A program made the translations under genes and the position numbers. A model generated the notes under the pieces. It saw only the letters and a program-made list of their open reading frames with translations. It was not told where the DNA came from and made no database searches. Shown here one piece after another: positions 4,506 through 58,632 of a DNA stretch of 64,000 bases. Source of the stretch: a virus; IMG/VR virus record IMGVR_UViG_3300025000_000065, positions 47,970-111,969 of that record, one strand, 5' to 3'. Position 1 is the stretch's first letter. Every line of letters starts with the position of its first letter.

Positions 4506-6599
4506 ATGAAATATGTTTTAAATGAGCCAAAGGTTGCGTTAGAAAGTTTTCGACATTATTTACGTGGAACTAAAAAGGTTGGTAAAGCACAACCACTATA
4601 TTCAAAAATTCAAACTCCTTATGGCGAAAAAACAATGGGAGAAATGAATGTTGGAGATGAAATTTTTACTATTGATGGAACTGTAACAAAAATCACTGAT
4701 GTTTTTCCCCAAGGTGTTAAAGATATTTATGAAGTTACCTTTTCTGATGGAAGCAAAACAAGATGTTCGGAAGATCATTTGTGGTCTGTTAGAACTAAAA
4801 AAATGAAGATCCTCGGAAAGGGATTTAATCGAATTATGACTTTAGGAGAAATTAAAAAAGATTATTTTTCTTTGGAGAAAGACGGCTATAGACATCCTAA
4901 ATTTGAAATTCCCATTGCAAGTGCCGTAGAATTTGAAAAAAGAGAAATTCCATTAGATCCCTATTTGCTAGGATTATTGTTGGGAGATGGATATATCTGT
5001 GGAAGAGTTGTTGGATTTTCCAATACAGAAGAAGATGTTTTAGAGAAAATTGAAAAAATATCTTTTGAAAAATATGGATGTGGTTTTGTTAAAAATTCAG
5101 AGCATAATTGCACGCATCATATAAAAAAACCAGATGGAGAATACAGAAATCCAATTCGAACAAAATTATCAGAATTGGGATTATTGGGATTAAAATCAAA
5201 AGATAAATTTATTCCCCAAGAATATTTATACAATGATTATTCAACAAGATTATCTATATTACAAGGATTAATGGATACAGATGGACACATTAGTCAAGAG
5301 GGACAAGTTAATTTTTCTTCAACATCTTTACAATTAATTGAAAATGTAAAGTGGTTAGTTCATTCCTTGGGAGGTCTTGCCACAATTCATGAAGATGCTA
5401 GAATTGGAAAAGAATCTTATTACTTAATTATTAGAGCAAATGGATTTGTACCCGTCACATCAGAAAAACATTCTCCAAAATTTGAAAAACATAATCCAAA
5501 TTTAACTAGATTTATTTCCAATATTGAATACATTGGTAAAGAAGAATGTCAATGTATTAAAGTTGAAGATGATTCAGAATTATATTTAACAGATGAGTTT
5601 ATTGTTACCCATAATAGCACGTTGTTCCGAGATTTAATTGTCGAATATTATGGAGATCCAAAATATGGATTAATGATTGCTCCAGGCAATGAAACAGGTT
5701 TTAAAGCCTTAGATAATCTGTATGCTATGGAAGCTCAAACATGGGAAGATTTCTGCGAAATTGTTAATGATTTAGTATTGAATAAGGCAGACAATGAATT
5801 TAAGATTATAGCAATTGATACCGTGGATGAACTAATTGCAATTGCAGAAGAAAAAGTATTGAAAATTCATTATCAACGAAAAGGCGAAAAGGCAACTTCT
5901 ATCAATGCTGCTTTAGGTGGATATGGAGCAGGAAAGAAAATGCTTCGTAAACTCATCAATGATAAAATCAAAGAAGTTGAAAATGCAGGTTATACCTGGT
6001 TTTTCGTTGGACATACGAAAGTTCGTGATATTAAAGAAAAGGGACAAGAGGAATCATATCAACAATTAACTTCCAATCTTGAGTTTGATTATGATGCATT
6101 ATTTACAGATAAAGCAGACATTATTGCCTCTTGTTACATAGAAAGAAACGTAAAAGATAATTCTTTAGAATCAACTACACGATACATTTATTTTCGCCCT
6201 AATGGTTTTGTTGATGCAGGAAGTCGTTTCAAAGATATGCCAGAGCGTGTTCCTATGACTGCACGTGATTACATTAGTGCTTTTGAACAAGGTGCAAAAG
6301 GAACTTATACAAAACCATTGACGAAAAAAGAATTGGATAAACGAAAGAAACAAGAAGAAACAGAACGTCAAGAACAAGCTCAAAAATTTACTGAAGCCAA
6401 AAAATCTAATTTTGAAGGATTAGAAACAGTTGAAGATTATCACAAAAAGATTCAGGAAATGAAAGAAGCATTGGACTCTGAGACTGCACGTGAAAAAGGT
6501 GAGCAATTAAAAGAAGCTGGATTGCCTCTAAGATTTAAAGAAATTGAAGATCTCGAACAACTAAAATTATTCTTAAAAATCGTTTCTTCAGACGATTAA
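4506..6599 (+). CDS. Sak4-like RecA-fold recombinase ATPase (AAA_24), interrupted by an intein
   Basis: The 697-residue precursor contains host residues 1-27 and 371-697 flanking a 343-residue intein. After splicing, the P-loop reads GTKKVGK-STLFRDL. Walker B is FKIIAIDTVDEL, and a conserved VGHTKVRDI segment follows, as in AAA_24/Sak4 proteins. Sak4-type proteins are single-strand annealing or strand-exchange recombinases that work with an SSB, and an SSB-like gene lies just upstream. The C-terminal 90 residues are charged and helical, likely an interaction tail. Without splicing the Walker A motif is broken, so activity should depend on intein excision. The ATG follows aaggag. Confidence 0.85.
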   Translation: MKYVLNEPKVALESFRHYLRGTKKVGKAQPLYSKIQTPYGEKTMGEMNVGDEIFTIDGTVTKITDVFPQGVKDIYEVTFSDGSKTRCSEDHLWSVRTKKMKILGKGFNRIMTLGEIKKDYFSLEKDGYRHPKFEIPIASAVEFEKREIPLDPYLLGLLLGDGYICGRVVGFSNTEEDVLEKIEKISFEKYGCGFVKNSEHNCTHHIKKPDGEYRNPIRTKLSELGLLGLKSKDKFIPQEYLYNDYSTRLSILQGLMDTDGHISQEGQVNFSSTSLQLIENVKWLVHSLGGLATIHEDARIGKESYYLIIRANGFVPVTSEKHSPKFEKHNPNLTRFISNIEYIGKEECQCIKVEDDSELYLTDEFIVTHNSTLFRDLIVEYYGDPKYGLMIAPGNETGFKALDNLYAMEAQTWEDFCEIVNDLVLNKADNEFKIIAIDTVDELIAIAEEKVLKIHYQRKGEKATSINAALGGYGAGKKMLRKLINDKIKEVENAGYTWFFVGHTKVRDIKEKGQEESYQQLTSNLEFDYDALFTDKADIIASCYIERNVKDNSLESTTRYIYFRPNGFVDAGSRFKDMPERVPMTARDYISAFEQGAKGTYTKPLTKKELDKRKKQEETERQEQAQKFTEAKKSNFEGLETVEDYHKKIQEMKEALDSETAREKGEQLKEAGLPLRFKEIEDLEQLKLFLKIVSSDD
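4587..5615 (+). mobile_element. Class 3 (WCT) intein with LAGLIDADG homing endonuclease
   Basis: Residues 28-370 of the precursor. The intein starts with Ala28 (AQPLYSKIQTPYG, block A) instead of Cys or Ser and ends THN before the +1 Ser371. The class 3 signature is complete: Trp93 in block B (CSEDHLWSV), Cys350 at block F position 4 (ECQCIKV) and Thr368 before the penultimate His369-Asn370. In class 3 inteins the block F Cys starts the reaction in place of residue 1. Two dodecapeptide motifs, LLGLLLGDGYI (154-164) and ILQGLMDTDGHI (251-262), keep their catalytic acidic residues, so the endonuclease looks intact. The insertion is between the Lys and Ser of Walker A, one of the most conserved positions of the host gene. 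Confidence 0.9.
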
Positions 6600-23378: not shown

Positions 23379-23755
23379 AAATTTATTTAGCAGGTGGACT
23401 AAGAAATCCTTGGAGAAAAACCGTAAAAATAAATGCAAGTTATCCAGATATTAAATATCTTGATCCAAATGAACACGAATTAAACATTCCATCACAATAT
23501 ACTAATCTAGATCTAAATATGATCGATCATTCTGATTTGGTATTTGGATATTTAGAAGAGGATAATCCAGGTGGATATAATACCTTATTCGAATTGGGAT
23601 ATGCAATAGGAAAAGGAATACCCATTATTTTTATAAATGAAAAACCCGATTGGGATAAATATGTGGGAATGATAAAAGAGAGTTCCTTATTTTATACAGA
23701 CATATTCGAAGAAGGGGCAATGTTTCTCAGGAAGTATTTGAGGATAATAAGATAA
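23375..23755 (+). CDS. Nucleoside 2-deoxyribosyltransferase-like protein
   Basis: A 126-residue protein beginning KIYLAGGLRNPWR, the opening strand and loop of the family. DHSDLVFGYLEEDNPGGYNTLFELGYAIGKGIPIIF holds the acidic and catalytic Glu segment (the GTxxELGYA pattern). Family members swap or hydrolyse the base of deoxynucleosides, consistent with nucleotide salvage or with removing modified nucleosides. It is translationally coupled to the small membrane protein. Confidence 0.75.
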   Translation: MKIYLAGGLRNPWRKTVKINASYPDIKYLDPNEHELNIPSQYTNLDLNMIDHSDLVFGYLEEDNPGGYNTLFELGYAIGKGIPIIFINEKPDWDKYVGMIKESSLFYTDIFEEGAMFLRKYLRIIR

Positions 23756-24142
23756 ATGAAACAAGAATTAGAAGAAAAACTAAGAAAAGAATTTAATTTC
23801 TACAATGGATTTTGGGATAATGGACTTCCATTTGAATGTGGAGATGGATGGTTTAATATTTTATACGATTTATCTAAGGAAATACAAAAATTAATAGATA
23901 ATAAAAAAATAAGCAAAGATTTCAATGTTTATCAAGTAAAAGAAAAATTTGCTTTTTTACACTACTATACAAATTTTTCAACCGATGAATTAGATGACCT
24001 GATAACTCAAGCAGAAGAAAAATCTATGACAACATGTGAACAATGTAGTCAACTAGGAGAAACAAGAAATATTGGACACTGGTATGTTACCTTATGCGAT
24101 AATTGTTTGAATGAAAGAAATAAAGAAAGAAATTCAATATGA
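23756..24142 (+). CDS. Zinc-ribbon phage protein, unknown function
   Basis: A 128-residue protein. The N-terminal half contains ECGDGWFNILYDLSKEIQ, a motif I associate with small phage proteins of unknown role. The C-terminus has CEQC and CDNC pairs forming a zinc ribbon. It starts directly after the preceding stop and its end overlaps the phosphoesterase start (ATGA). Confidence 0.6.
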   Translation: MKQELEEKLRKEFNFYNGFWDNGLPFECGDGWFNILYDLSKEIQKLIDNKKISKDFNVYQVKEKFAFLHYYTNFSTDELDDLITQAEEKSMTTCEQCSQLGETRNIGHWYVTLCDNCLNERNKERNSI

Positions 24143-24648
24143 AATATTGGCTCACTACTGATACACATTTTGGTCATTCAAAAATGATGGAATATTGTAA
24201 CCGACCTGAAGATTTTTCTGAAATAATATTGAAAAATCTTCGTCACTCTGTTAAACATGATGATATCTTAATACATCTAGGAGACATTTGTATTTATAAT
24301 GATGTGATATGGCATTTACAACTTCTTACTGTTCCTGGTAGACATTGGTTAATTCGAGGAAACCACGATAAAAAATCTAACTCGTGGTATTTAGAAAATG
24401 GATGGAGCATGGTATGTGATCAATTTCAAGATAAAATATTTGGAAAAACTATTATGTTTTCTCATAAGCCTGTAATCTGGAATGGAGAATATGATATAAA
24501 TATTCATGGTCACTTTCATAATGTAGATCCAAACAGACACGAGAAAGAATTAGTTGCTATTAAAAACGTGTCTCAAAAATTGTTAGCTTTAGAATATACA
24601 AATTATATGCCTGTTACTTTGGAAAAATTCATTGTTGGAAAAGCATAA
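24139..24648 (+). CDS. Small calcineurin-like metallophosphoesterase
   Basis: A 169-residue protein with all metal motifs: TDTHFGH (DxH), LGDIC (GD), IRGNHDKKS (GNHD), FSHKP (xH) and HGHFHN (GHxH). It resembles the compact phage and YfcE-type phosphoesterases. The substrate is unknown; cyclic nucleotides, nucleotides or 2',3'-cyclic ends are possible. Confidence 0.82.
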   Translation: MKYWLTTDTHFGHSKMMEYCNRPEDFSEIILKNLRHSVKHDDILIHLGDICIYNDVIWHLQLLTVPGRHWLIRGNHDKKSNSWYLENGWSMVCDQFQDKIFGKTIMFSHKPVIWNGEYDINIHGHFHNVDPNRHEKELVAIKNVSQKLLALEYTNYMPVTLEKFIVGKA

Positions 24649-24679
24649 ATTAAAACCATTTTATTTTTAAGGAGAAAAA

Positions 24680-24877
24680 ATGAAAAAAGCAATATTTACT
24701 ATTTATAATGAAGTATTCGTAATGAAGTTTGAGCATAATGAAAAGTTTAGTAATAAAAAGAAAAGAAAAATAGCCAAAAAAATATTAAAAATATTCGATG
24801 CAGAAGCAGAAATAAACGAAATCTTTGGATTAGATGATTTAATTATTGAAGATAAAAGAACCTCGAAAAATATTTGA
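24680..24877 (+). CDS. Small basic protein, unknown function
   Basis: A 65-residue protein with an aaggag site. The basic segment (FSNKKKRKIAKKILKIF) suggests nucleic acid binding. It is the last + strand protein gene. Its stop codon lies inside the -35 box of the next promoter. Confidence 0.55.
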   Translation: MKKAIFTIYNEVFVMKFEHNEKFSNKKKRKIAKKILKIFDAEAEINEIFGLDDLIIEDKRTSKNI

Positions 24878-24902
24878 CAATAAAATGATTATCGATTAGA
24901 AT
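24874..24902 (+). promoter_or_regulatory. Sigma70-type promoter of the junction RNA
   Basis: TTGACA (24874-24879), 17 bases, TAGAAT (24897-24902). No plausible protein gene lies between it and the terminator at 25209, so it should drive a noncoding transcript starting near 24909. Confidence 0.75.
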
Positions 24903-24908
24903 ACTACT

Positions 24909-25246
24909 AACAGTACCTAGAACGCCTCTACCTAGTAAGCGTACCGATCTTGTTTTATAAAATAGGGAATTATTTTATAAAGCACGGACACCAATTATGT
25001 CTGAGGTCATACTCAATAAGGGTTGGATTGGCAACTCTTATTGTCTTGTTAGTAGAACAAAACTGGTTGTATTTCATCTTACTGGTAAGACACTACACAT
25101 TTTACAAAGGAGTTTTGTGTATTTTCACACATTTTACATATAAAAAATGTGTAATTTAGGTCACATAACCTTTAGGTTATACAACCTATTTAATAGGTAA
25201 AATCATAAAAAAATAGACCATAGAAATTAATCCATAGTCTATTTTT
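24909..25246 (+). ncRNA. Candidate structured noncoding RNA, about 340 nt
   Basis: The 390-base stretch between the last + gene and the endolysin gene holds this element. It begins at a near-consensus promoter and ends at a strong terminator. Successive hairpins are visible: 24954-24964 with 24971-24981 (11 bp perfect), 25014-25025 with 25032-25043 (12 bp, one G-U), 25043-25055 with 25078-25091 (about 13 bp with G-U pairs), 25127-25135 with 25144-25152 (9 bp), 25165-25180 (6 bp) and 25184-25198 (6 bp). Base composition is less A-rich than the surrounding genes. No tRNA cloverleaf or known riboswitch core is recognised. An overlapping 69-codon frame lacks a ribosome-binding site. Confidence 0.6.
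25209..25246. terminator. Bidirectional terminator between converging units
   Basis: A 10-bp stem (aaaaatagac / gtctattttt) with extra internal pairing. T-tracts follow it on both strands (TTTTTAATTT on +, TTTTTTTATG on -). It ends the junction RNA and the long leftward late transcript 24 bases after the endolysin stop. Confidence 0.8.
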
Positions 25247-25269
25247 AATTTATAAATATTTATTATTTA

Positions 25270-26193
25270 TTATTCAATTCTTTTTAAATATTGCTTTCCA
25301 GCATGTTTTTCTGCAACCCATCCAATATTCTTATCAAAGATCCAATTTTCATAAGGAGCAAAAGAATTATCAAATTCTACTATGTTTCCTTTTAATAATT
25401 TTTTCCCCGTAAATGTATTTGCAGAAACTCTTGGTTGTGTCCTAATATTTAATTCATCTGAAACAACCTCAAATTTTATTGTTTTACCGTCATCAATAGG
25501 ATCAGTTGGATCTACAGGAGGGGGTTCAACAGGAGGTTTTGGAACAGTTGGGACTTTAAATTGAGCACAAAGTTGTTCAAAAGATCCTTTATAGTAATTC
25601 ATATCTAACCCAAGACTTTCAGCACCAAAAGCTAGTCCATCCCCTTTATCACTCCACTGCCAAAATGTAAACGTATCCCAAGGTGTAAGTCTTTTCACAT
25701 TATCTTCCATATAAGATTGATTGGTATAAGAAGCAATCCATAATGGATAGTTTTTCCATACGTCCGCATCTGTACCATGCTCAGCCCAAAAAAAAGCACC
25801 AGTATATATAATTGGTTTTTTACCAGAAAGTCTTTCCATCTCTACTACATAGTTCCATAAAATATCATATGCTTTTGGAGGTGGTGGATTCCAATACTCA
25901 AAGTCAATAACGGGTGGCAATTCACCAGGATCATTTTGAATAATCGACCATGCGTATTGCGCCTGTTTTTTTGGATCAGCAATCCAATCGAGAAAATGAT
26001 AAGCTCCTCTTAATAGCCCTGCCTGTTTTGAAGATTTCCAGTTATACAAAATATCTTCATCAGTCCATAAAGCTTGAGAAGATTTAATAAATACAAATTT
26101 AGCCCCCATTGCAACTGACTTTGTAAAGTCCATTTGTTGAGCGGTGGAATTATTGTCCTGCCATTTTGAAACATCAATGCCAAGTGTATAAGC
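25270..26193 (-). CDS. GH25 endolysin with C-terminal SH3-like domain
   Basis: A protein of 307 residues from the preferred start. The catalytic domain opens LGIDVSKWQDN, has FVFIKSSQALWTDE, LLRGAYHFLDW, and PPVIDFEYW, the GH25 DxE catalytic strand, and ends FWQWSDKGDG. A Pro-rich linker (PKPPVEPPPVDPTDP) leads to a C-terminal SH3b-like wall-binding module (SDELNIRTQPRVSANTF, LLKGNIVEF). It cleaves peptidoglycan between MurNAc and GlcNAc. The ATG at 26193 has ggagg 5 bases upstream and gives the usual GH25 N-terminus. An in-frame ATG at 26265, also with a ggag site, would add 24 residues. No signal peptide is seen, so release needs a holin. Confidence 0.9.
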   Translation of the reverse strand, partial: AYTLGIDVSKWQDNNSTAQQMDFTKSVAMGAKFVFIKSSQALWTDEDILYNWKSSKQAGLLRGAYHFLDWIADPKKQAQYAWSIIQNDPGELPPVIDFEYWNPPPPKAYDILWNYVVEMERLSGKKPIIYTGAFFWAEHGTDADVWKNYPLWIASYTNQSYMEDNVKRLTPWDTFTFWQWSDKGDGLAFGAESLGLDMNYYKGSFEQLCAQFKVPTVPKPPVEPPPVDPTDPIDDGKTIKFEVVSDELNIRTQPRVSANTFTGKKLLKGNIVEFDNSFAPYENWIFDKNIGWVAEKHAGKQYLKRIE

Positions 26194-26283
26194 CATAGAT
26201 TCCTCCATTGTTTTCCAATCATTCATAATCAACGGTAAAAATACTGTTGTTATTTCAGTTTCCATTTCATTACTCCATTTTAT

Positions 26284-26335
26284 ATACCCCCACATATGGG
26301 GTATATCACATCACGATACACCATATATGGGGGTT
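26284..26335. promoter_or_regulatory. Palindromic operator-like sites upstream of the endolysin
   Basis: Two copies of a CCCCATATRTGGGG-type palindrome: 26284-26304 (ATACCCC arm, GGGGTAT arm) and a half-degenerate copy at 26318-26335. On the - strand the first reads GGGGGTATATAAAATGGAG, overlapping the leader of the endolysin. The same element recurs at 38631-38712 and partly at 40989. Confidence 0.55.
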
Positions 26336-26375
26336 AAAAACCAAATAAAATCAACATTTTATTTAAAATAAAATT

Positions 26376-27152
26376 TTATCCAAAACCATATAATGAAAGT
26401 AAAGTTCCTGCTCTAAAATTGTATCGAGTTGAATATGTTCCACCTGTTATATACGCTCTAATCCTAGTTATAGGAACAGTGTTTTTCCAAACACCATTTA
26501 TAATAGAAGATTGTCCAGAAACACTTGAAAAAATAGAGGATGAAAATCCCATTGCTGTTTTGTACAATCCACCAGAAGCTGAGTAATTAGGAATAATTCC
26601 AAATACGCTGCCGCTATCAGTTGCTAGATAATTAGGAACACTTCCTATTATAACTCCTCCATTGGTATAAACTTGCAATGTATTGAGTCCTATTAAATCT
26701 CGTAACCATTGAGAAGCAATATAGTTTCCACTATTAGCATCTCCATTAAAATCCAATCCTACATCTGCAAAAGTTCCATTTGTTCCTGCTGCTAATCCCA
26801 TAATTATTAAATGTTTGAAATCTTGAGGAATATCAGTGAAATCAGCCTGACCCAATCCTTCAAATTCATCTATTTTTTGTAATTTTAAATTTAAGGTATC
26901 AACAGCAGAACTTAAAGTAGAAATCGAAGAAGTTATTGTGGATATATCCGAATTAATAGCGGTTATAGAACCACTAATTTGACTTCTAGCGTCCGTTAAA
27001 GAACCACTAATATCTCCTGCAAATGTATCAATTATAGTCATATTACTAACTGATGATCCTGCTACATCATTAGTCCAACTAATAAAACTTCCACTTTGAT
27101 CAGTTGTAGCGTTATACAGAATCAATCCTAAATTTGTACTTGTAGTTGTCAT
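26376..27152 (-). CDS. Tail fibre / tip protein, paralogue of the next upstream gene
   Basis: A 258-residue protein. The N-terminal half is Ser/Thr-rich with a predicted coiled coil (SDISTITSSISTLSSAVDTLN). The C-terminal half has a beta-rich domain with QADFTDIPQDFKHLIIMG, SVFGIIPNYSASG and TRYNFRAGTLLSLYGFG. The same motifs in the same order occur in the neighbour (26376 and 27163 are paralogues). It is probably a receptor-binding or host-surface protein at the tail tip. It lies last before the lysis gene. Confidence 0.65.
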   Translation of the reverse strand: MTTTSTNLGLILYNATTDQSGSFISWTNDVAGSSVSNMTIIDTFAGDISGSLTDARSQISGSITAINSDISTITSSISTLSSAVDTLNLKLQKIDEFEGLGQADFTDIPQDFKHLIIMGLAAGTNGTFADVGLDFNGDANSGNYIASQWLRDLIGLNTLQVYTNGGVIIGSVPNYLATDSGSVFGIIPNYSASGGLYKTAMGFSSSIFSSVSGQSSIINGVWKNTVPITRIRAYITGGTYSTRYNFRAGTLLSLYGFG

Positions 27153-38630: not shown

Positions 38631-38712
38631 ATACTCCCATATATGCCGATATACATCACACATACCCCCATATATAGGGGTATAAAATTTCTTGACCCCC
38701 ATATGTGGGGGT
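38631..38712. promoter_or_regulatory. Cluster of three palindromic operator-like sites
   Basis: Sites at 38631-38652 (degenerate), 38662-38683 (arms ATACCCC and GGGGTAT around an 8-base AT centre) and 38695-38712 (ACCCCC-ATATGT-GGGGGT) lie between the holin terminator and the RuvC-like gene. The last overlaps a + strand TTGACC-16-TAAAAT promoter-like pair. They match those before the endolysin. Confidence 0.55.
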
Positions 38713-40950: not shown

Positions 40951-40995
40951 GTAATAACTCCTCCTATAAAATTTTTAGGGGAGATTAAACCCCCA

Positions 40996-41029
40996 TATAT
41001 TGAGAGAGATTTATTTCTCTCTCAATATA
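40996..41029. terminator. Stem-loop after the major tail protein gene
   Basis: A perfect 14-bp inverted repeat (tatattgagagaga / tctctctcaatata) with a 6-base loop. On the - strand it is followed by ATGGGGGTTT and not by a T-tract, so it probably attenuates or stabilises the abundant tail-protein mRNA. Confidence 0.6.
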
Positions 41030-47465: not shown

Positions 47466-48218
47466 CTACACTTTATTTTTTGTGATTTCTAAAAATGCAA
47501 CAGAATCCTCATATTTTTGGTTCAAATCCATATTCATTATTCTGGCTAATTTATCAAATAAATTTAAATCTATTGTTTCACCATTAATTCTTTTATCAAT
47601 AATCATGGTTGCTAAAATTTTTTGTTGTTCTTTTGGTGCTGATTTTGCAAAAGTTAAAATATCATTTTCTTTTACTTCACCACCTTGAAAACCCAAAAGT
47701 ATCATGTCCATCTTTTCTTTGTTCATAATGTTTTTGTAAACATCATCTAGACCATGTTTTCTAACAACCCTTCTATCTAAAATAACGAAAAATCCTCTTT
47801 CAAGAAAATGTCTGTTTTCTTCAATTATTTTTTCTAATTCTTGATAAATAATTCTTTTTGTTTTACCGTATCCCCTAAAAGTAAATATCCTTCCTCTTCC
47901 ATGTCTTTCTGTACTTATATTCAATTCATATGGAATTAAAGACATTACTTTTATATAAGAATTCAAAGGAACTTCTTCCTCTTCTTCGTAAACATAGTTT
48001 TCTTCTACATCATCTTCAGAATCTTTTTTAGTTGTCAAATTAGAATTATTTTTTATATTATTTTGAAGATCTTTAATCATTTTATAAATATTTTCTAATT
48101 CTGTTTTTTTAATAATTACGGTTTCTTCCTCTGAAGATTTTGACTGAGAATTTTCAACTAAATCTTTATTTTCCGCATTTTGCGATTTATCTTTTGGAGG
48201 TCTTCCTCTTGTTGCCAT
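47466..48218 (-). CDS. Head-region protein with AT-hook-like start, unknown function
   Basis: A 250-residue protein. The start, MATRGRPPKDK, has an AT-hook-like GRP core. An acidic stretch (YVYEEEEEV) near residue 78 is followed by a compact domain: SYIKVMSLIPYELNIST, GRIFTFRGYGKTKRI and GFFVILDRRVVRKHG. The domain looks conserved and ordered but I do not recognise its family. Position downstream of the capsid gene suggests a head or packaging role. Confidence 0.55.
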   Translation of the reverse strand: MATRGRPPKDKSQNAENKDLVENSQSKSSEEETVIIKKTELENIYKMIKDLQNNIKNNSNLTTKKDSEDDVEENYVYEEEEEVPLNSYIKVMSLIPYELNISTERHGRGRIFTFRGYGKTKRIIYQELEKIIEENRHFLERGFFVILDRRVVRKHGLDDVYKNIMNKEKMDMILLGFQGGEVKENDILTFAKSAPKEQQKILATMIIDKRINGETIDLNLFDKLARIMNMDLNQKYEDSVAFLEITKNKV

Positions 48219-49300: not shown

Positions 49301-49315
49301 TATCAAGTCCAATCA

Positions 49316-49352
49316 ATTATCTAGTATGAGAAAATTTCCCATACTAGATAAT
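49316..49352. terminator. Stem-loop after the capsid gene
   Basis: A perfect 13-bp inverted repeat (attatctagtatg / catactagataat) with an 11-base loop between the capsid stop and the HNH gene. It lacks a T-tract on the - strand. It could protect the capsid mRNA 3' end or limit expression of the endonuclease. Confidence 0.6.
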
Positions 49353-49369
49353 TTTATTTATTTAAAATA

Positions 49370-50485
49370 CTAGATCGTAATTAGTCCCAGGACAGAATTG
49401 GAGGCTACAGCCGTTCCCCAAGACTTGTGCATAGTAGCACGCTGAATTAAATTACGATTCTCATAAACAGAATCAGTAATAGAAAGGGTTGAACCTTCTA
49501 ATACTAATTTAACAAATTTCTGAGAAGCTGGTGATAAAATCCAGAGACGATCTGTGTCAATTTTCAAAGACCATTCGGTATCGTTATTGGCAACTTGGGG
49601 AAGTTCCATTACATCGTATCCAAATGCGGTACGAACATGACCGAGAGTCATATAGGGATCGTCTAAAGTATAGCGATAATTAGCATCATTGGGTAAAACA
49701 TTTACTAACGCACGTGCAGTACCAACGATCATTGCTTTATTACCGTTATTCCAAGCAGTAACCTGTTCGCATAAGCGCATCAATGAATCTTGTGAATAAC
49801 CAGCAACTTGTAAACCAGTTGTAGCTGTAGTTGGTAAAGCAGCAGCCATAGCGGCAAAAGCATCGTAAACATCATTACGCATAGCTGCTTCCATAGAACG
49901 AATAACTTTTACAACTAATTTAGCAAGAGATTCTTTTCCAGATAAAACACGATATAAATCAGCGTAAACAGTCAAAGCATGATTTACTGGAGTAACGGTT
50001 TTTGTTCCCATAAATTGTTTGTAGGCAAAAGAATTTCTCTGACCACGACCAATTTGAGAAACAGAAAACAGGTCATTAGATTCAACATCAAACTGAGCAC
50101 TATCACCAAACCCAATAGTACGAACATCAGAATATAAGCTAATAGAGTCAATCAAAGTCTGTGGAATAATCATATCAACGATGCTTGCCACAACAGCAAA
50201 AATCTCATTGCGTAAACCCTGATGATTAAAGATTTGATCAGCCGGAGCTTCAGCAAGATAAGGAACGTTAGTTCGTTTCATTGCTTCTTTAATAATTGCA
50301 TCAGTAATTTGTTTTTCTTTTTCCTCAAAAGTAATCAATTCCCCTTTATCATTAACTTTAGCGAATTCATAATTTCGAGTTTTGTCCTGTGAAGACTTGT
50401 AGTGATTCCACCAGTCAGGGATCATTTTATCATATAATGTGGGATTCCCAACAGCGAAATGAACAATATTATTCGGAATTTGCAT
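49370..50485 (-). CDS. Major capsid protein (HK97 fold)
   Basis: A 371-residue protein with the features of HK97-type capsids: a long N-terminal helical arm, a spine-helix-like segment (ALTVYADLYRVLSGKESLAKLVVKVIRSMEAAMRNDVYDAF), A-domain region MIVGTARALVNVLP and YMTLGHVRTAFGYDVMELP, and a beta-rich C-terminus. Base composition is richer in GC than its neighbours, as expected for the most expressed gene. It follows the protease/scaffold and decoration genes in the usual order. The ATG has aaggagg. Confidence 0.8.
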   Translation of the reverse strand: MQIPNNIVHFAVGNPTLYDKMIPDWWNHYKSSQDKTRNYEFAKVNDKGELITFEEKEKQITDAIIKEAMKRTNVPYLAEAPADQIFNHQGLRNEIFAVVASIVDMIIPQTLIDSISLYSDVRTIGFGDSAQFDVESNDLFSVSQIGRGQRNSFAYKQFMGTKTVTPVNHALTVYADLYRVLSGKESLAKLVVKVIRSMEAAMRNDVYDAFAAMAAALPTTATTGLQVAGYSQDSLMRLCEQVTAWNNGNKAMIVGTARALVNVLPNDANYRYTLDDPYMTLGHVRTAFGYDVMELPQVANNDTEWSLKIDTDRLWILSPASQKFVKLVLEGSTLSITDSVYENRNLIQRATMHKSWGTAVASNSVLGLITI

Positions 50486-58565: not shown

Positions 58566-58632
58566 ATTTTTAAACTCCAATACCAATAAAAGATCTTTTT
58601 TATTTAAAAATTTGCATCCCAAGATGCATCAG

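Follow-up and report, generated by a model that had tools for sequence, protein, structure and literature searches.

The DNA analysed here (the window) is a stretch of 64,000 nucleotides, positions 47,970 to 111,969 of the IMG/VR virus record IMGVR_UViG_3300025000_000065, and comes from a virus contig of 112 kb. Its plus strand up to 24877 carries genes for DNA and nucleotide metabolism, and its minus strand from 25270 carries a structural and lysis module with a GH25 endolysin. The gap between these converging modules is occupied by a cassette predicted to encode a structured non-coding RNA (ncRNA), for which the sequence signals define an intact transcription unit spanning 24874-25246. On the plus strand this unit comprises a sigma-70/sigma-A type promoter, TTGACA-17-TAGAAT (24874..24902), and an RNA core extending from the invariant 5' end AACAGUACC to AAUAGGUAAAA (24909..25202). 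It is followed by a bidirectional hairpin terminator (25209..25246, both strands), with an A-run before it and a T-run after it, which the unit shares with the converging endolysin operon.

Searches of IMG/VR via the flanking proteins and DNA patterns recovered three further carriers of the cassette (L012, L010 and L011/L005), giving a family of four members. In each carrier the cassette is preceded by the same metallophosphoesterase gene, and an endolysin gene converges on it from the other side. The RNA core of these relatives is 84-90% identical to that of the window, above the 61-68% identity of the phosphoesterase at fourfold sites (window versus L012 and L011), and the endolysins show 54% (L011), 29% (L012) and 25% (L010) identity to that of the window. 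In L010 the neighbouring gene is identical at 46 of 47 fourfold sites, and near-identity runs through orf65 (window 24680-24877, L010 5542-5721) before breaking off ahead of the RNA. A near-identical orf65 beside an RNA that is 86% identical therefore points to a recombination break between the two, which would have swapped the RNA-endolysin end; L010 additionally carries an inserted gene ahead of the promoter. In L011 about 1.2 kb lies between the RNA core and the terminator, and there we observed (L011 6020-7059) an HNH-like gene, so labelled from cysteine motifs read by eye, with a promoter of its own (TTGACA-17-TACAAT), and a frame of 98 amino acids with a poly-Q run. As the cassette is intact amid these swapped or inserted neighbours, selection appears to maintain it in these phages.

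The promoter is the top sigma-70 match within 23500-26800 (11 of 12 hexamer positions), and TTGACA-N16-18-TANAAT occurs three times in the 64 kb against 0.74 expected. Its hexamers are identical at 11-12 of 12 positions in the four members, whereas identity in the 17-nucleotide spacer drops to 9 of 17. Conservation resumes at AACAGUACC, seven bases past the -10 box in the window, and the transcript is therefore expected to start there, near 24909. An initial annotation of this DNA, made from the sequence alone, had placed the start of the feature at 24903; the RNA unit is indeed present there, but its promoter begins upstream, at 24874. The terminator stem, with 16 pairs by scan, can stop transcription from both sides, judging by its sequence, and in L012 and L010 the stem differs in sequence with its pairing retained. 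Thus the own promoter and terminator that had been claimed for the RNA hold as sequence signals kept in the relatives, with the terminator of L011 separated from the core.

One fold fits all four members and occupies the 5' domain (24909-25043, plus strand). It begins with hairpin B (24922..24942; ACGC/GCGU plus UAC/GUA), an inner pair of which is A-U in the window and G-C in the relatives. Helix E (24946..25008; GAUCU/AGGUC) then closes a three-way junction that holds stem C (24952..24983; 13 bp, loop GGGAAU), with six pairs changed on both sides, and hairpin D (24985..25003; loop CCAAUUA at 24991-24997), two pairs of which are changed in L011 with pairing kept. Hairpin F follows (25014..25043; 12 bp, loop GAUUGG at 25026-25031), its loop being complementary to that of D. 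In a hand-adjusted alignment the 49 listed pairs form in all four members, except for one that is deleted as a unit in L011, and nine pairs show changes on both sides. The adjustment concerns one base that MAFFT misplaces in stem C of L011, and it leans toward the structure; the plain MAFFT alignment, which gives the conservative count, has 98.5% of cells paired and six both-sided pairs, with none of 500 shuffles scoring as high. Stem C of L011 is largely new sequence and still forms 12 bp. The domain alone yields fold z-scores of -2.5 to -4.1 across the members, at a mean column identity of 92%. Hence the check for covariation in homologues, which had been suggested with the first description, does return compensatory changes, albeit from four members only. 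We also considered a further closing helix pairing 5' UACCUA with 3' UAGGUR, which is broken in L011 and was dropped from the supported structure.

The region 24903-25250 as a whole has a fold energy of -88.5 kcal/mol, with z-scores against dinucleotide shuffles of -5.9 on the plus and -7.1 on the minus strand (none of 100 shuffles as low). A regression scan of 300-nucleotide windows ranks it 9th (plus) and 8th (minus) of 1276, which puts it with the most structured parts of the window without making it unique. The same scan also marked a strong minus-strand fold at 49301-49600. The long stems originally reported are as long as stated (C, F and the terminator, as given above), and so is the A content lower than that of spacer, at 35.4% against 40.8% in the plus half and 44.4% in the spacers of that half. 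The suggestion that the RNA is structured throughout is borne out strongly, and with conservation, for 24909-25043; the 3' half alone is modest (z -1.1 to -1.4), and its hairpins differ between members. Because of this we claim a conserved structure, as judged from sequence comparison, for the 5' domain only. The 3' domain (25044..25202, plus strand) contains the invariant UACACAUUUUACAAAGGA with a Shine-Dalgarno-like AAAGGA; it is conserved at the sequence level, with no fold yet settled.

Neither the window nor the locus of the relatives matched any family of Rfam 15, ROOL and GOLLD included, at the gathering threshold, and a lenient scan gave chance-level matches only. The description of a structured RNA gene, as yet unassigned, that carries a promoter and a terminator of its own therefore stands, given the absence of an Rfam match and the compensatory changes in homologues. 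Apart from chance matches, a homologue search among named phages turned up nothing but a hairpin in MT835469 that resembles the terminator. In viral contigs, patterns built on four conserved blocks, on the D/F loop pair and on the promoter with the 5' end, with matches checked by covariance model and profile, found no contigs above chance level other than the three carriers. In genome contigs a strict pattern gave no match and a loose one at least 119, and among the matches scored by the covariance model (loci up to L415) none was convincing. Run on whole records of the relatives and of Enterocloster, Thomasclavelia and Alicyclobacillus phages, many of which are fragments, the model recovered known members only. 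A reverse-strand match in L005/L011 (27.5 bits) was considered as a second copy and rejected, as it falls on the known locus and is most probably due to the near-palindromic hairpin F. From these comparisons we conclude that the cassette appears to represent a real family of stand-alone structured ncRNAs with four known members.

The loops of D and F are invariant and complementary over six bases (five Watson-Crick pairs and one U-G), and for random loops of such sizes a matching pair arises somewhere in about 1.7% of draws. Because these bases never vary, a 6 bp kissing contact is an inference, and a possible one. Based on these observations we propose, with middling confidence, that the cassette is a stand-alone phage ncRNA gene, transcribed early by the host, whose 5' fold acts by its shape to bind or decoy a protein, and not as an antisense RNA or a source of peptide. 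Host RNA polymerase would read the RNA early from the sigma-A promoter, and a product of about 340 nucleotides would end at the terminator that the early and late modules share where they converge. Sequence comparison supports a conserved folding of the 5' half of this product into the domain made up of hairpin B, helix E closing the junction with C and D, and hairpin F, in which the D and F loops might kiss. The folded RNA could then bind, decoy or scaffold a protein of the host (or of the phage). When the translation-initiation regions of the window were scanned for antisense targets, none outdid shuffled seeds, and our best guess is that the RNA works by its fold, as a protein-binding decoy or scaffold, and not as an antisense RNA to the mRNAs of its own phage.

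Several points weigh against this proposal. Protein binding is guessed from the kind of constraint seen, and the transcript of about 340 nucleotides is predicted from sequence signals. With four members the covariation events are few, coming mainly from L011 (C and D) with one each from the window (B) and L010 (C), and stem C was aligned by hand with the structure as a guide. The predicted kissing pairs are invariant, and in a crude reach model the contact within one molecule would require a sharp bend. Finally, the sequence conservation of a 3' domain that has no settled fold could mean pairing to host RNA.

This last point bears on the possibility of a trans-acting antisense small RNA (sRNA) that pairs with host mRNAs via conserved single-stranded stretches, namely the 5' end AACAGUACC and UACACAUUUUACAAAGGA. 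We consider this unlikely, though it merits serious attention, as it would account for invariant stretches unexplained by conserved pairing, a stand-alone promoter and terminator are found in many bacterial sRNAs, and there is precedent in sRNAs of phage origin that act on genes of host and phage (PMC12197685). However, the constraint in the 5' domain falls on pairing and not on a seed, and no phage target exceeded chance in the scan of translation-initiation regions of the phage window. We give little credence to a structured mRNA for a short open reading frame, for example one encoding a small hydrophobic peptide. An open ATG frame of 48-53 codons, starting at 24997, is present in every member, which qualifies the earlier statement that there is no credible protein frame, and many of its changes replace one hydrophobic residue with another. 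Yet neither an excess of synonymous changes (23 against 21.2 expected, p 0.38) nor of conservative codon changes (substitution score, p 0.08) gives a significant coding signal in the four members, in keeping with that statement, and the frame lacks a Pfam match. Furthermore, indels shift its length and C terminus, no ribosome site is evident ahead of the ATG, and that codon has its A in the D loop and its T and G in the D stem. The compensating change in stem D of L011 turns codon 2 from S to F, as would suit a constraint that acts on the RNA.

The complementary, invariant loops likewise admit a multimeric RNA, in which D and F kiss between molecules to form chains or rings, like the contacts of ROOL, GOLLD and the phi29 packaging RNA (pRNA). 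A crude rigid-helix model finds a coaxial kiss within one molecule incompatible with the 5-nucleotide linker unless strongly bent; the contact may therefore lie between molecules, and intermolecular kissing loops are documented for ROOL and GOLLD (PMC12286853). Against this, the loop pairs are invariant, the geometry is modelled very coarsely, and the RNA is smaller than ROOL or GOLLD; we regard multimers as distinctly improbable. The bolder version, a new class of phage RNA self-assembling via D/F kissing into rings or chains as a scaffold in infection or packaging, has in our view a slim chance of being right. Least of all do we favour a mere transcriptional insulator, with stacked hairpins and a terminator halting converging transcription. 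The position between converging modules and the bidirectional terminator would suit such a role, but an insulator would require neither a conserved promoter nor so high a column identity in the 5' domain, and L011 retains the core despite its distance from the terminator.

Elsewhere in the window, the portal protein is nearest to portals of Enterocloster, Brevibacillus and Alicyclobacillus phages (identity up to 33%), and the host of this phage is therefore likely to belong to the Firmicutes. The sole tRNA lies at 58632, so that the RNA locus is not beside a tRNA gene. Palindromic CCCCATATATGGGG-type sites at 26288-26332, 38666-38710 and 40991-41004 lie close to minus-strand gene starts, two of these cases being pairs 31 bp apart (14 matches against 2.7 expected), and may serve the late genes as an operator or promoter element. 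An AAA-domain protein encoded at 4506-6599 contains an internal LAGLIDADG domain, possibly an intein or homing endonuclease.

Among known systems, the phi29-type pRNA is a phage packaging RNA that combines a junction with a pair of complementary loops, features that also belong to the fold described here; the type of phage is different. No Rfam match links the RNA to this pRNA, or to the ROOL, GOLLD and abiF RNAs. The abiF RNA/RCd22 RNA antitoxin offers an example of a structured phage-borne RNA acting by protein binding (PMC12373285), which in our case is a guess, no AbiF-type partner gene having been identified beside the RNA. ROOL and GOLLD are ornate phage- or prophage-borne RNAs of unknown function with loop-loop contacts, GOLLD often exceeding 800 nucleotides (PMC12286853); the present RNA is likewise ornate and phage-borne, with a loop-loop contact that complementarity suggests, but is smaller and stands apart from tRNA genes. 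The lnc and snc RNAs of staphylococcal phage K are intergenic ncRNAs of unknown function, of which lnc001 has its own early promoter (PMC9241854). They resemble the present RNA in arising from intergenic phage DNA, probably in a Firmicutes host here too; unlike them, it has no RNA-wide sequence match in the phage collection, and compensatory changes support its fold. The nearest kind is that of phage intergenic ncRNAs such as those of phage K, together with the ornate ROOL and GOLLD. To the structured phage RNAs backed by compensatory changes this family adds one absent from Rfam, with a folded domain of 135 nucleotides that offers a compact target for probing, pull-down and deletion tests.
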